From Salipaludibacillus neizhouensis (GTDB lineage Bacteria; Bacillota; Bacilli; Bacillales; Salisediminibacteriaceae): 64,000 bases of DNA. Shown here piece by piece: positions 7,371 to 47,714 of the stretch. Positions within the stretch are counted from its first letter, which is position 1, and each line of letters begins with the position of its first letter. A program made the position numbers and the translations under genes. The notes beneath the pieces were generated by a model. That model did not search any database, was not told the origin of the DNA, and was given only the letters and a program-made list of their open reading frames with translations. Location of the stretch: positions 717,187-781,186 of the forward strand of contig NZ_KZ614147.1 in the NCBI RefSeq assembly GCF_002886185.1, read 5' to 3'.

Positions 7371-7405
7371 CAGTAGCACCTACATCCCCACAGTAGGTGC
7401 TACTG
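7371..7405 (+). repeat. GTAGCACCTAC-family hairpin between glyA and upp
   Basis: CAGTAGCACCTAC (7371-7383) is the exact inverse of GTAGGTGCTACTG (7393-7405), with a 9-base loop. This arrangement, with the GTAGCACCTAC arm first, is also seen at 5057 and 44286, and is opposite to the array units. Confidence 0.8.
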
Positions 7406-19082: not shown

Positions 19083-19490
19083 ATGAAAACGATGCAAACC
19101 AATGTCGTTACTCCTGATGGCAGTGTATTTAGCGGACAAGTAGAAATGGTAAGCGCGAAAACACAAGCGGGCGATCTTGGTATTTTACCGGATCACATCC
19201 CCTTGGTAACACCACTTGCCATCGGTGCAATCCGTATTAAATTAAACAATAAAGTAGAACTTATCGCAGTCAGCGGTGGCATCATGGAAGTCCGCGGTGA
19301 CGAAGTAAACATCCTTGCAGAATCCGCAGAAGTACCAACTAGTATCGATGTCGCACGAGCACGCGCAGCAAAAGAACGCGCCGAACGCCGACTCGAGCAA
19401 GCCAAAAAAGACAACCTCGACTTCAATCGTGCTGAACTCGCCCTCAAGCGAGCCATCAACCGTTTAGAAGTTTCTCAGAATAAAATTTAG
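19083..19490 (+). CDS. atpC: F0F1 ATP synthase subunit epsilon
   Basis: Rotor subunit and ATPase brake, 135 residues. An N-terminal beta sandwich with [20 protein letters not shown] is followed by two helices ([19 protein letters not shown] and [13 protein letters not shown]). ATG 19083 follows AAGGAGG. It is the last gene of the operon, followed by a terminator at 19503. Confidence 0.95.
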
Positions 19491-19540: not shown

Positions 19541-19568
19541 TGTTTTTTTTGAAGTGGGGGTGGGTGCG

Positions 19569-20115
19569 GTAGGTGCTACTGGCGTAGCACCTACAAACGT
19601 AGCATGTAGAAAACCAGAGCATAAGCGAGGATAAAGGAGGTTGAGTGTTGGAAAAAGAGGTAGGTGCTACCGTTGTAGCACCTACAAAAGTAGCACGTAG
19701 AAAACCAGAGTATAAGCGAGGATAAAGGAGGTTGAGTGTTGGAAAAAGAGGTAGGTGCTACCGGGGTAGCACCTACAAAAGTAGCACGTTAAAAACGAGA
19801 GCATAAGCGAGGATAAAGGAGGTTGAGTGTTGGAAAAAGAGGTAGGTGCTACCGAGGTAGCACCTACAAAAGTAGCACGTTGAAAATGAGAGCATAAGCG
19901 AGTATAAGAGAGGTTGAAAGCTGAAAAAAGAGGTAGGTGCTACTGGCGTAGCACCTACAAAAGTAGCACGTTAAAAACAAGAGCATAAGCGAGGATAAGA
20001 GAGTTTGGAAGTCGAAAAAAGAGGTATGCGCTCCTGCGGTTACTCGTCGGAGAAAACATTGCTACCCCGGTAGCACCTACAAAAGTAGCGCGTCGAAAAC
20101 AAGAGCATAAGCGAG
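19569..20115 (+). repeat. Six-unit 91-bp tandem array of GTAG-headed hairpins
   Basis: Units begin at 19569, 19660, 19751, 19842, 19933 and 20024, exactly 91 bp apart. Each of the first five starts with GTAGGTGCTAC, a 4-base loop (TGGC, CGTT, CGGG, CGAG, TGGC) and GTAGCACCTAC, so the 11-bp stem is invariant while the loop varies. AAAAGTAGCACG and a spacer ending GGAAAAAGAG or similar follow. The sixth unit is degenerate at its head (GTATGCGC) but keeps the right arm. GTAG heads and flanking half-palindromes are features of REP elements moved by RAYT proteins, and a RAYT gene lies 150 bp away. Confidence 0.9.
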
Positions 20116-20267
20116 TAAACAGAAAGTTTAAAATCGCTCTAAAAAACTAATCAGTCAATAACTATTAATCAATCTAATTAGCTCTTTGCGGAATATACAG
20201 CTACTGAAACATCAAACCAAATGATAATTACCCAAAACCATTTTTCATTAATAACTAAAAATACGTA

Positions 20268-20822
20268 TTAATTTGTGTTGCACCATTGAATATACTGCAT
20301 TTTTCGTTGATGATAGGTACCAGTAAAAGAGCGTAATAATGGGGTAAAGTTGATGTAGGGGGGTGTTAGTGAATTTTCACTGGATTGAATGAATAGAGGA
20401 TAACTACTCCATTGATAATCTTTCGGAGATTCAACGGAGTGGATTTCAACAGGATTAAAGTGAATGTAGCGACTCATGTGGAGTAGTGTGCGAGGAGTCG
20501 AAGCCGGTTTAGCAAAAAAGCGTTTCTCAAACAAATGACCGCGGGTATTATATTTTTTATTGAAAAAGGTGGCATACTTCTTTTTTTCCAAAAACATAAT
20601 ATTAGAATAGCTTTGAGTATTTGAGAACAGCAACAAATGAAAGTGAGTTTTCATTAATACATAAGATACTAATTGAAAAGGATACTTTTTGTTTGCTTCA
20701 TCTAGCAGTTGAAGGAAATAAACAAAATCATCGTCTGATCTGAATAAAGGCTCCTTCCAGTTAGAACGACTAGTAATATGATAATAATAACTTTTTTGCC
20801 ATCGGCGATTTACGTGAGGCAT
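20268..20822 (-). CDS. REP-associated tyrosine transposase (RAYT, Y1/HUH family)
   Basis: A 184-residue single-strand DNA nuclease of the IS200-like TnpA/RAYT class. The HUH motif is H-F-H in MKTHFHLLLF; the helix KKKYATFFNKKYNTRGHLFEKRFF carries the candidate catalytic Tyr; YIHFNPVE and the WSSYP box near the end are typical of RAYTs. ATG 20822 was chosen because TAGGAG precedes it on this strand; the frame extends to 20876 without such a site. It is a lone gene without inverted-repeat transposon ends, pointed towards the hairpin array, as in REP-RAYT loci. Short CAACACAAAT copies in inverted orientation lie at both its ends. Confidence 0.85.
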   Translation of the reverse strand: MPHVNRRWQKSYYYHITSRSNWKEPLFRSDDDFVYFLQLLDEANKKYPFQLVSYVLMKTHFHLLLFSNTQSYSNIMFLEKKKYATFFNKKYNTRGHLFEKRFFAKPASTPRTLLHMSRYIHFNPVEIHSVESPKDYQWSSYPLFIQSSENSLTPPYINFTPLLRSFTGTYHQRKMQYIQWCNTN

Positions 20823-20879
20823 TATACCATCTCCTAATTCATAATATAATTGTTTTGCATAGAAAAACCAACACAAATA

Positions 20880-21950: not shown

Positions 21951-22322
21951 ATGCAGCTGGGAGTTTACTATGATAACTATCTGCTTGTTTTGATATTTAT
22001 TTTGCTCGGAATTGCACTTCCAGTGGTTGCTTTAACGTTTGGAAGATTCGTCAGGCCTCACAATCCGTATCCGGCTAAGACCTCACCTTATGAGAGTGGG
22101 ATCAAACCGGAAGGAGATGCTCAAGTTCGATACCATGTAGCCTACTACATTATCGCGCTTGAATTTATCATTTTCGATGTTGAAACCGTTTTCATGTATC
22201 CGTGGGCAGTTGTACTTTATCAGCTAGGATGGGTGGGACTCAATATGATGCTCATCTTCATCGCAATATTAGCGCTCGGGCTCGCCTATTCTTGGAAAAA
22301 GAAGGTGCTAGAATGGAACTAA
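21951..22322 (+). CDS. nuoA: NADH-quinone oxidoreductase subunit A
   Basis: Membrane subunit of complex I, 123 residues, three helices. The conserved YESGIKP segment and the [16 protein letters not shown] helix are clear. ATG 21951 follows GGGAGGGAGTGA. First gene of an 11-gene operon and overlaps nuoB by ten bases. Confidence 0.95.
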
Positions 22323-35485: not shown

Positions 35486-35710
35486 GTAGGTGCTACGTTT
35501 GTAGGTGCTACGGCGGTAGCACCTACCGAAAAAAACGAGAGAAAAGCTCGCGTATACGCGCTGATGCGCCGGAAATCAAGGTGCTACGTTTGTAGGTGCT
35601 ACGGCGGTAGCACCTACCGAAAAAAACGAGAGAAAAGCTCGCATATACGCGCTGATGCGCCGGAAATCAAGGTGCTACGTTTGTAGGTGCTACGCAGGTA
35701 GCACCTACCA
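35486..35710 (-). repeat. Second 91-bp array of GTAG-headed hairpins
   Basis: Hairpins GTAGGTGCTAC-N4-GTAGCACCTAC start at 35501, 35592 and 35683, again exactly 91 bp apart, preceded by an extra GTAGGTGCTAC at 35486. The unit core GTGCTACGTTTGTAGGTGCTAC corresponds to the reverse complement of the core at 19569-20115, while most of the spacer differs. The array fills the murAA-spoIID spacer. Frames through it are not genes. Confidence 0.88.
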
Positions 35711-41475: not shown

Positions 41476-41538
41476 AATTGGCAGCTACTCGGAAGCTGAC
41501 GTTGCATTTAATAAAAGACGCTTTGCGTTTTTCTTATG
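41476..41538. repeat. GGCAGCTAC element with terminator hairpin
   Basis: AATTGGCAGCTACTCGGAAGC, then TGACGTTGCATTTAATAAAAG, then the hairpin ACGCTTTGCGTTTTTCTTATG. The same element at 44234-44379 is split by about 82 bp carrying a GTAGCACCTAC hairpin. Confidence 0.7.
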
Positions 41539-44149: not shown

Positions 44150-44233
44150 CCGTGAACAGTTGCAACGTTTCATATTAGAAGATAAAAATTTAACAAAAGC
44201 CGCAACGCGTTTTTCTTAAAAGATAATTTATAT

Positions 44234-44379
44234 AATTGGCAGCTACCTTCACACCGCGCGTATCAAGGGAAACCCATCCTTCTTTCGAGTAGCACCTACA
44301 CACACTTCGTAGGTGCTACTCGGGGCGGTGGAAGCTGACGCTGCATTTAATAAAAGACGGCTATGCCGTTTTTCTTATG
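44234..44379. repeat. Composite repeat: GGCAGCTAC element split by a GTAGCACCTAC hairpin
   Basis: The left part (to 44246) and right part (from about 44329) together match the element at 41476-41538. Between them lie about 82 bp containing GAGTAGCACCTAC and GTAGGTGCTACTC around a 9-base loop (44287-44321). GCTAC occurs at both edges of the inserted part. The terminal hairpin overlaps the stop codon of the STAS gene and could terminate it. Confidence 0.75.
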
Positions 44380-46962: not shown

Positions 46963-47316
46963 ATGAAAAAAGCAATTTTAACACTCGCATCAGGAGTATT
47001 ATCACTAGGAATTTTAGCAGCCTGTGGAGGCAACAACGAAGAAGACGTAAACGTAGATGTCAATGAAGGTGGCACTACAAATGAAGTTGAAACCACTGAC
47101 AACAGTATGAACGAAGAAAACAGCATGGACGAAGGAATGAATGAAGAAAACAGCATGAATGAAGGAATGAAAGAAGAAAACAGTATGAACGAAGGAATGA
47201 AAGAAGAAAACAGTATGGATGAAGGAATGAATGAGGAAAAAAGTATGAACGAAGAGGAAAGCGTGGAAGAGAACAACAGCATGAATGATGAAATGGATGA
47301 AACAAACAACTCATAA
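46963..47316 (+). CDS. Small acidic lipoprotein 1 with decapeptide repeats
   Basis: A 117-residue secreted lipoprotein: basic start, hydrophobic core, lipobox LAAC with Cys21, then a very acidic tail. The tail contains about four copies of a ten-residue unit (N/K)EENSM(N/D)EGM between residues 45 and 90. It is the first of five paralogues in a row; no known domain is seen. AGGAGG precedes ATG. Anchoring to the outer membrane face is inferred from the lipobox. Confidence 0.8.
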   Translation: MKKAILTLASGVLSLGILAACGGNNEEDVNVDVNEGGTTNEVETTDNSMNEENSMDEGMNEENSMNEGMKEENSMNEGMKEENSMDEGMNEEKSMNEEESVEENNSMNDEMDETNNS

Positions 47317-47396: not shown

Positions 47397-47714
47397 ATGA
47401 TGAAGAAAAAATTAATGTTAACCGCAATGTCGAGTGTATTGACTTTAGGTGTGCTTGCAGCTTGTGGAGGGAATAATGAAGAAACACCAGTAAATGATGC
47501 ACCAGCAAACGATACTGGTACAGAAACTAATTTAGAGGAAAACGGTACTATGAACGAAGAAGAAGGTATGCCTGAAGAAAACGGCAAGAATGAAGGAGAG
47601 AATATGCCTGAAGAGAATGGTATGGGTGAAGAAGAAGGCGCGAAGGATGAAGAACTAGGTGACGACACGAACGACGATATGGGCGAAATGCCCGATGAAA
47701 AGAATAATTCTTAA
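47397..47714 (+). CDS. Small acidic lipoprotein 2
   Basis: A 105-residue paralogue: signal MMKKKLMLTAMSSVLTLGVL, lipobox LAAC, then Glu/Gly/Met/Asn-rich sequence with EENG and MPEE repeats. ATG 47397 or the next ATG at 47400 may be used; AAGGAGG precedes both. It is 80 bp after the first copy, with no terminator between. Confidence 0.78.
   Translation: MMKKKLMLTAMSSVLTLGVLAACGGNNEETPVNDAPANDTGTETNLEENGTMNEEEGMPEENGKNEGENMPEENGMGEEEGAKDEELGDDTNDDMGEMPDEKNNS

Follow-up and report, generated by a model that had tools for sequence, protein, structure and literature searches.

The stretch of DNA analysed here (the window) comprises 64,000 nucleotides of Salipaludibacillus neizhouensis, a salt-loving relative of Bacillus (contig NZ_KZ614147.1, positions 717,187 to 781,186). 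Between atpC and nuoA it carries a lone gene for a REP-associated tyrosine transposase (RAYT; REP, repetitive extragenic palindrome), and 3' of this gene lies a tandem array of hairpin-bearing units. A preliminary description of the locus, whose coordinates (19569-20822) are right, had taken gene and array together for a candidate REP-RAYT system. In window coordinates, the features are:

19083..19490, plus strand: atpC, convergent with the RAYT gene; the same neighbour in six genomes
19568..20128, minus strand (sense = RAYT strand): tandem array of hairpin units between atpC and RAYT, 3' of RAYT
19569..19594, unstranded: hairpin 1, loop TGGC (GCCA in RAYT sense)
19660..19685, unstranded: hairpin 2, loop CGTT (AACG in RAYT sense)
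19751..19776, unstranded: hairpin 3, loop CGGG (CCCG in RAYT sense)
19842..19867, unstranded: hairpin 4, loop CGAG (CTCG in RAYT sense)
19933..19958, unstranded: hairpin 5, loop TGGC (GCCA in RAYT sense)
20024..20128, minus strand: sixth, RAYT-proximal unit; 3' arm retained (20070-20080), other half a CTCCTGCGGTTACTCGTCGGAG segment
20268..20822, minus strand: RAYT, a Y1 HUH single-strand transposase-like protein of 184 amino acids (H60, H62, Y119, N123, P124)
21951..22322, plus strand: nuoA, on the far side of the RAYT locus

Five perfect hairpins, GTAGGTGCTAC-N4-GTAGCACCTAC, start at 19569, 19660, 19751, 19842 and 19933, a step of exactly 91 bp, and the sequences bear out the invariant 11-bp stem with differing four-base loops that had been reported for them. 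The five units agree pairwise at 76-85 of 91 bases, and Tandem Repeats Finder gives a period of 91, 5.0 copies and 91% matches. Six units at this period had been counted; the sixth is altered, with its 3' arm at 20070, 122 bp beyond that of the fifth unit, and half of it replaced by CTCCTGCGGTTACTCGTCGGAG. The region around it (20041-20131) folds slightly better than shuffled sequence (z -1.46). A CTCCTGCG...CGACGAG-like segment (window 20024-20065; also L101, L102, L097 and L118) breaks array hairpins in several genomes and builds tandem repeats of its own in G015, so that it is possibly another repeat family. As single-stranded DNA the 26-mer hairpin has a folding energy of -10.7 kcal/mol (z -4.75), and its arm is in itself a short dyad, GTAG-GTG-CTAC. 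With at most one mismatch allowed, the 11-mer arm occurs 22 times in the window, every time exactly, against 0.36 expected from 100 shuffles (maximum 2). The units are direct repeats placed head to tail with one symmetric hairpin each, and do not alternate as inverted REPs do in REPINs (REP doublets forming hairpins) or bacterial interspersed mosaic elements (BIMEs); the earlier label of a BIME-like array does not hold in the strict sense. A CRISPR-like or coding reading was also abandoned, because the spacers are repeats too and a period of 91 bp is not divisible by three. An Rfam search of the window returned nothing at gathering scores.

The neighbour of the array, whose stop codon lies about 140 bp from the array end, is indeed the lone Y1/HUH protein that had been announced. 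Pfam Y1_Tnp matches it with E 7.4e-11 and 42.7 bits (cut-off 23), and by far its best model match is NCBIfam NF047646, REP-associated transposase (E 1.1e-18). Its open frame reaches upstream to a TTG at 20876. In a six-row alignment H60, H62, Y119, N123 and P124 are the same as in E. coli RayT, which gives the HUH motif, a single tyrosine and Y-x3-NP. The HFH motif noted previously occupies residues 60-62; the WSSYP motif named with it is present and is not catalytic. The conserved tyrosine, Y119, lies in YIHFNP and corresponds in the alignment to Y115 of E. coli RayT. The gene has one copy in the source genome (a single 100% match). The other matches there are a 36% paralogue with a 267-amino-acid open frame at C2:1165621 and a broken copy in two pieces at C2:998614-999133. 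No tnpB-sized frame stands beside the gene in the list of open reading frames (ORFs) of the window, no search with a tnpB model having been made, and no transposon ends were identified around it. An IS200/IS605 element would be mobile, with defined ends and several near-identical copies; this gene has one copy, at a locus common to six genomes. Matches to PDB sequences (CorA, weak, E 0.017 and worse) were taken as chance.

The source genome (G000, 5.5 Mb) was compared with its relatives (G002, G003 and so on), 40 genomes in the comparison. A RAYT sits between atpC and nuoA in six genomes (G000, G002, G003, G007, G010 and G016), which belong to two genera, and in five of the six, G007 being the exception, a tandem array lies between the RAYT stop and atpC. 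The units measure 91 bp with GTAGGTGCTAC in G000, 103 bp with GTGGGTGTTACC in G002, 91 bp with GTTGGTGCTAC-N4-GTTGCACCTAC and two T-T mismatches in G003, and 91 bp with AACCCGGGTT-N6-AACCCGGGTT in 16.5 copies in G010; those of G016 measure 89 bp and carry a TTGAACC stem. Arrays of 101 bp also stand behind the RAYTs of G019, where the array lies away from the atp locus, and of G047. Forty-one RAYT loci (those returned as loci, not all listed matches) were inspected with a flank of 1.5 kb each; hairpin arrays of 89-103 bp were found at seven of them, always 3', with 24-245 bp between the end of the window-protein match and the start of the array. In the six of ten pairs of array-bearing genomes that were compared, the RAYTs at the atpC-nuoA locus are 38-57% identical. 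Read by eye, spacers of different genera appear to have a common pyrimidine-rich motif, for instance CTCGCTTATGCTCTCGTTTTC in G000 and CGCTCATGCTCTTGTTTTC in G010, and two dyads lie about 15 bp apart in several lineages. A search for RAYT relics at the atp locus of seven genomes without a RAYT there (G001, G004, G006, G009, G012, G026 and G032), some of which carry RAYTs elsewhere, gave nothing better than E 0.5.

At the RAYT-distal end of the arrays of G000, G002, G003, G010, G019 and G047 a C-rich stretch, CGCACC..CC or ACCCAAGC..CC, follows the last unit, and in most of them a terminator-like hairpin comes next; this resembles a fixed boundary. On the 5' side of the RAYTs at L022 and L197 there are two further tandem repeats (51 and 42 bp).

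The number of hairpins follows the RAYT across relatives, a conclusion well supported by the genome sequences. The arm GTAGGTGCTAC has 318 copies in G000 (166 + 152), and its reversed control 0 + 1. The preliminary description had proposed counting the hairpin genome-wide and looking for an intergenic bias. The count gave 36 perfect hairpins, at 18 places, and none of 16 arrays in G000 lay inside an ORF of at least 90 amino acids, nor did any of ten in G010. A 26-nt palindrome in high, intergenic copy fits the usual definition of a REP (20-40 bp), many of the 318 arms belonging to the element B1 described below. In the stretches that were fetched, 17 of the 18 steps between neighbouring hairpins of a row measure 91 bp and the remaining one 92 bp. 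The exact palindrome also occurs in other Salipaludibacillus (CUR1, aurantiacus, keqinensis) and in Texcoconibacillus texcoconensis. With the window protein as query, 25 of the 40 genomes have a RAYT match at E <=0.001. Close RAYTs (54-58% identity) are found in G002, G003 and G007, all of the window's genus; among the eight members of the genus that were compared (G000-G007), G001, G004 and G006 have none and G005 has only distant ones, the best at 42%. Exact arms number 318 in G000, 40 in G002, 36 in G003, 16 in G007, 3 in G005, 2 in G004 and 1 each in G001 and G006; Texcoconibacillus (G009) has 135, and the other 31 genomes 0-2. Outside G000, G002, G003, G007 and G009 the 35 genomes thus have 0-3 arms, the reversed control reaching 6 there. 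The relaxed form GTWGGTGCWAC-N4-GTWGCACCWAC gave 36 hairpins in G000, 20 in G002, 70 in G003, 65 in G009, 2 in G007 and none in 35 of the 40 genomes. Equal copy number in relatives lacking the RAYT, which had been named as the outcome that would speak against the pairing, was not seen for the window hairpin in these 40 genomes.

Other RAYTs appear to be paired with other hairpins, including those at the same place in the sister genus, and these hairpins are nearly confined to single genomes. Allowing at most one mismatch, G010 has 84 copies of its own hairpin and 39 other genomes have none; the G019 hairpin has 42 copies in G019, two in G007 and none in 38 others; the G016 stem, 26 in G016, four in G049 and none in 33 others; and the G047 hairpin, 21 in G047, 11 in G019 and none in 11 others. 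Related hairpins adjoin the second RAYT of G007 (L043), which is 42% identical to the G019 RAYT and grouped with it at modest support. The RAYTs of G019 (L041) and G047 (L197) are 64% identical, and their arrays have a common 101-bp unit frame, TGGCACC...GTGCCACGTTG, in which the core hairpin has been exchanged. A hairpin of the G019 type persists in the last unit of the G047 array; conversely, five G019 arrays have a G047-type hairpin at the 5' end of the row, the other G047-type sites in G019 being isolated. Both patterns would fit renewal of the arrays from the 5' end, and the opposite direction is possible too. Taken together, these sequence comparisons suggest that gene and repeats evolve together.

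It had also been supposed that the protein recognises GTAG and that the loop bases differ freely, and neither supposition is supported by the data. E. coli RayT contacts GTAG through W94, Q95, E100, H101 and R104 (Quentin 2018, PMC6006769), and canonical GTAG recognition in RAYT subclasses 2.2, 2.4, 2.5 and 2.7 is described with conserved W94, Q95, E/D100, H/R101 and R104 (PMC6006769). The window protein has F, E, A, K and S at these positions, none of the five being kept. Arrays of related RAYTs start with GTTG, GTGG, AACC, GTTC, GGAC or TTGA; a 5' GT[AG]G foot is present in G000, G009 and G002 (GTGG) and absent in the arrays of G003 (GTTG at the RAYT), G010, G016, G019 and G047. As both the contact residues and, in related arrays, GTAG itself are missing, recognition probably depends on other features. 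Of the 36 G000 hairpins 34 could be oriented, and 30 of these have C at loop base 3 (22 of 25 distinct locus-loop combinations), bases 1 and 2 being mixed. Base 3 is C or T in the 15 orientable hairpins of G019 (of 42), and C in 27 of 33 in G003, a set that counts two places twice (L136/L051 and L137/L072). The six-base loops of G010 have C at base 1 in 57 of 68 and T at base 4 in 53 of 68. Essential loop bases are known in vitro for group 3 TnpAREP (PMC8266576).

The palindrome GGGGTCAGACCCC, previously named as a possible alternative target, does exist, with nine matches at five places in the window (at most two mismatches; 0.39 expected), and is similar to GGGGWSAS, a motif of TIRYT repeats (PMC3733652). 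We rejected it as the true target of the RAYT: it has 12 exact copies in 601 kb of G000, and none in window 19.0-22.5 kb around the gene.

Since the spacers make the units asymmetric, the strand of an array can be read. As a proxy for the replichore we used the sign of the GC skew within at most 10 kb on each side (shorter at stretch ends), with the array and 100 bp masked. By this local measure the RAYT-sense strand is the lagging strand in 44 of 52 distinct arrays: 15 of 16 in G000, 10 of 10 in G010, 11 of 13 in G019, 4 of 6 in G003, 2 of 2 in G002 (one of them a 49-bp fragment), 1 of 4 in CUR1 and 1 of 1 in G016. The binomial p is 4e-7 and assumes independence of the arrays, which is uncertain. 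The only other orientation in G000 is that of the second array of the window (at 35490), which has a different spacer, and of the two exceptions in G019 one is a fragment of 53 bp and the other a mixed call (0.51). Such a bias is as expected for single-strand transposition; IS608 and ISDra2 are described as acting on the lagging-strand template (PMC6006769). Transcription was considered as a cause and rejected: two arrays with both flanking ORFs on the lagging strand, G000 C1:1638178 and G010 C1:1527390, follow replication, two cases being few.

Units resemble each other more within than between arrays (0.933 vs 0.801 in G010, 0.905 vs 0.581 in G000, 0.921 vs 0.644 in G019), which fits, at the level of sequence, amplification in place after a few units were dispersed. 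Steps under 300 bp are of 91 bp in 57 of 62 in G010 and of 101 bp in 23 of 29 in G019, at independent places.

On comparative grounds that draw on several lineages, we consider it likely that the locus represents a REP-RAYT-type system of Bacillales, unusual in its unit and probably in its mode of recognition, in which the protein would recognise, nick and move hairpin units, the hairpin changing as the RAYT diverges. The HUH/Y1 protein would recognise the 26-nt hairpin that closes each unit as single-stranded DNA, probably through the stem sequence and loop base 3. A nick beside the hairpin may free a unit made of a 65-75 nt spacer and the hairpin, and such units could be reinserted into intergenic DNA exposed on the lagging-strand template. 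Once a first unit was placed, more would be added or amplified head to tail, giving arrays of exact period. As the RAYT diverged, its preferred hairpin would shift and array units would be replaced, so that each lineage could come to have its own hairpin. More tentatively, and with somewhat greater doubt than confidence, these may form a separate Bacillales lineage of REP-RAYT systems that dispenses with GTAG recognition. Its unit would be an asymmetric spacer plus hairpin of about 90-100 nt, lying in one orientation on the lagging-strand template in head-to-tail arrays, and each array, renewed from one end with the old hairpin at the far end, might record successive enzyme-substrate pairs in order.

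Several findings weigh against a REP-RAYT-type system. No array of this kind was found within 1.5 kb at 34 of the 41 RAYT loci, and G007 has a RAYT at the atp locus yet two hairpins and no array. G005 has an array family of its own, with 53-bp units GGTCACAAG...CTTGTGCC (C6:62322-62877, L140, and other places; its matches number 95 forward and 61 reverse, with some sites scored on both strands). No RAYT was detected in the 1.5 kb seen beside its array right behind atpC, and none of the hairpins of this family lies in the 20 kb surrounding its best RAYT. In an atpD tree (1400 bases) G005 falls on the side of the RAYT carriers, apart from G001, G004 and G006, so that its lack of the window-type hairpin is not simply a matter of distance. 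From G005, with arrays and no adjacent RAYT, and G007, with a RAYT and almost no repeats, it follows that arrays and the neighbouring RAYT can separate. The orientation bias is weak in G003 and absent in CUR1, and in G003 all loop bases are fairly constant. Mechanically called ORFs cover part of 7 of 13 array places in G019; the intergenic claim therefore rests on G000 and G010. As to the protein, it scores 67.5 bits with NF047646 against a cut-off of 80, and an AlphaFold model built from three sequences reached a predicted local distance difference test score of 49.8 and was not used for fold searches.

A different origin of the arrays would leave the RAYT a smaller part: it may have only seeded single units long ago, the arrays having grown by replication slippage or unequal recombination with no further role of the protein. 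Tandem repeats of about 90 bp can expand without a transposase, loci with a single unit exist, units are most alike within an array, and the G005 arrays stand at the locus with no adjacent RAYT detected. However, slippage alone explains neither the recurrence of one period at independent places nor the position of the array directly 3' of the RAYT in seven genomes, and we hold this origin to be rather unlikely, noting that it overlaps with the system preferred here, which would allow more than one mode of amplification. It is improbable that the hairpins are instead copied transcription terminators or stabilisers of mRNA 3' ends, with the RAYT a bystander in a quiet intergenic place. The arrays of G000 and G010 are intergenic, the B1 family, which has these arms too, closes with a terminator-like hairpin and in 43 of 53 instances sits 3' of a gene running in its own direction, and in RAYT sense a T run comes two or three bases after the hairpins of the window, L097 and L129. 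On the other hand, the G000 arrays L093, L094, L095, L098 and L130 have no such T run, arrays occupy convergent, divergent and co-directional gaps and mostly track the GC skew, and lineage-specific sequences would not be expected of terminators.

KOPS (FtsK orienting polar sequences) and ter sites are polarised along the replichore, and the arms might likewise be double-strand sites of a chromosome-organising protein, to which the strong GC-skew polarity in G000, G010 and G019 and the paired dyads of several lineages would be suited. Such sites are usually conserved, whereas the sequences here are replaced between species of one family, and the adjacency to RAYTs would go unexplained; we regard this as the most improbable of the explanations.

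Compared with known systems, the preferred REP-RAYT reading has a close parallel in the E. coli REPtron (TnpAREP/RayT with GTAG-tagged REPs and BIMEs), which likewise has an HUH motif with a single tyrosine and Y-x3-NP, a lone gene near intergenic palindromes and one protein per repeat family. The differences are an identity of 19%, changed GTAG-contact residues, single-hairpin units head to tail with a spacer of about 65 nt, and the loss of GTAG in related arrays. Moreover, the window RAYT has its array on the 3' side only, where a REPtron has inverted cognate REPs on both sides. The window protein has an FExR motif in place of the GTAG-contacting WQ and in this presumably resembles subclass 2.1/TIRYT proteins. 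Proteins of subclass 2.1 are described with a C-terminal helix-turn-helix-like extension and, in that account, no REP beside them (PMC6006769; for TIRYTs, PMC3733652), whereas the window protein is short (184 amino acids) and has arrays. The 'double foot' REPs of subclass 2.4, reported to be abundant in Cyanobacteria and Bacteroidetes with a scattered occurrence in other groups, likewise have GTAG and CTAC at opposite ends of the hairpin (PMC6006769); unlike subclass 2.4, the window RAYT lacks all the residues that contact GTAG, and related arrays do not conserve the foot. With IS200/IS605 elements such as IS608 the system has in common the Y1 HUH enzyme, the lagging-strand bias and subterminal hairpins, and differs in that the gene is kept single-copy at a conserved locus.

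Tandem arrays beside RAYTs have a precedent in Pseudomonas fluorescens SBW25, where, according to Bertels and Rainey (2011, PMC3116915), three RAYTs each have a repeat cluster at their side and tandem REP arrays are forward at about 2 Mb and reverse at about 4 Mb, opposite on the two chromosome halves (PMC3116915). There an inverted REP doublet is regarded as the replicative unit, and GI and GIII REPs alternate within arrays (PMC3116915), while the Bacillales arrays have one hairpin per unit and, in the seven instances detected, stand 3' of the gene. Given these arrays, clusters and opposite orientations in SBW25, the kind of arrangement is known, and the Bacillales variant is new within the literature searched. 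That literature, represented mostly by titles and abstract openings, contained no description of REP-RAYT pairs or such arrays in Bacillales, which does not establish their absence from print; two Geobacillus genome papers mention RayT in a transposase-count table (PMC9693769, PMC4847372). The finding of RAYTs at one locus with differing hairpins makes enzyme-substrate co-evolution testable with natural pairs. REP-RAYT co-evolution has been studied mainly in Proteobacteria, whose repeats are for the most part symmetric and where it is a matter of debate which unit is dispersed. Asymmetric units let the insertion strand be read directly, as palindromic REPs do not.

A local spread of hairpins can be followed in Texcoconibacillus (G009), whose RAYT, 37% identical to the window protein, has the window-type hairpin on both sides. 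Preferential production of REPs near the rayt gene has been suggested (Nunvar 2010, PMC2817692). On contig C8 (161 kb) lie 44 of the 65 hairpins of the genome, all within 45.5-142.7 kb, with the RAYT at 67.5 kb and a second one at 130.9 kb. Outside ORFs of at least 80 amino acids are 41 of the 44. Among gaps of at least 60 bp, 39 of 66 have a hairpin in 45-143 kb, none of 24 before and none of 5 after; the borders are sharp. A genomic island was considered as the cause and tentatively set aside. Of ten sampled proteins nine lie inside the cluster, eight of them matching ordinary families (transporters, enzymes and one S-layer domain) and one lacking a match at E 1e-10; the tenth, just outside, carries an S-layer domain. 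No tRNA was found in three of the nine stretches. This stretch of about 98 kb makes local hairpin spread measurable.

The remaining features of the window and of G009 that touch on these repeats are:

7373..7403, unstranded: isolated inverted pair of the same arms, N9 between them
35486..35709, plus strand: second array, three hairpins with a 91-bp step and a different, purine-rich spacer
44228..44377, plus strand: dispersed element of about 150 bp, family B1, with inverted arms (GTAGCACCTAC-N9-GTAGGTGCTAC) and a terminator-like hairpin at its end
44067, 45499, 46618, 38426 and 8278: GGGGTCAGACCCC-like palindromes
G009 C8:45547-142721: Texcoconibacillus hairpin cluster (loci L119-L126 and L112)

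The family that includes B1 consists of structured elements of about 120-150 bp, with 53 matches in 601 kb of G000, a density that is biased since these stretches were partly picked for the arm. A partial copy lies at window 41490-41536, and B1 itself is a variant whose middle part is exchanged for the GTAGCACCTAC-N9-GTAGGTGCTAC pair. Elsewhere in the window, tandem repeats of 30, 18 and 36 bp, all multiples of three, occur at 47107-47254 and 47552-47638, possibly within coding sequence.

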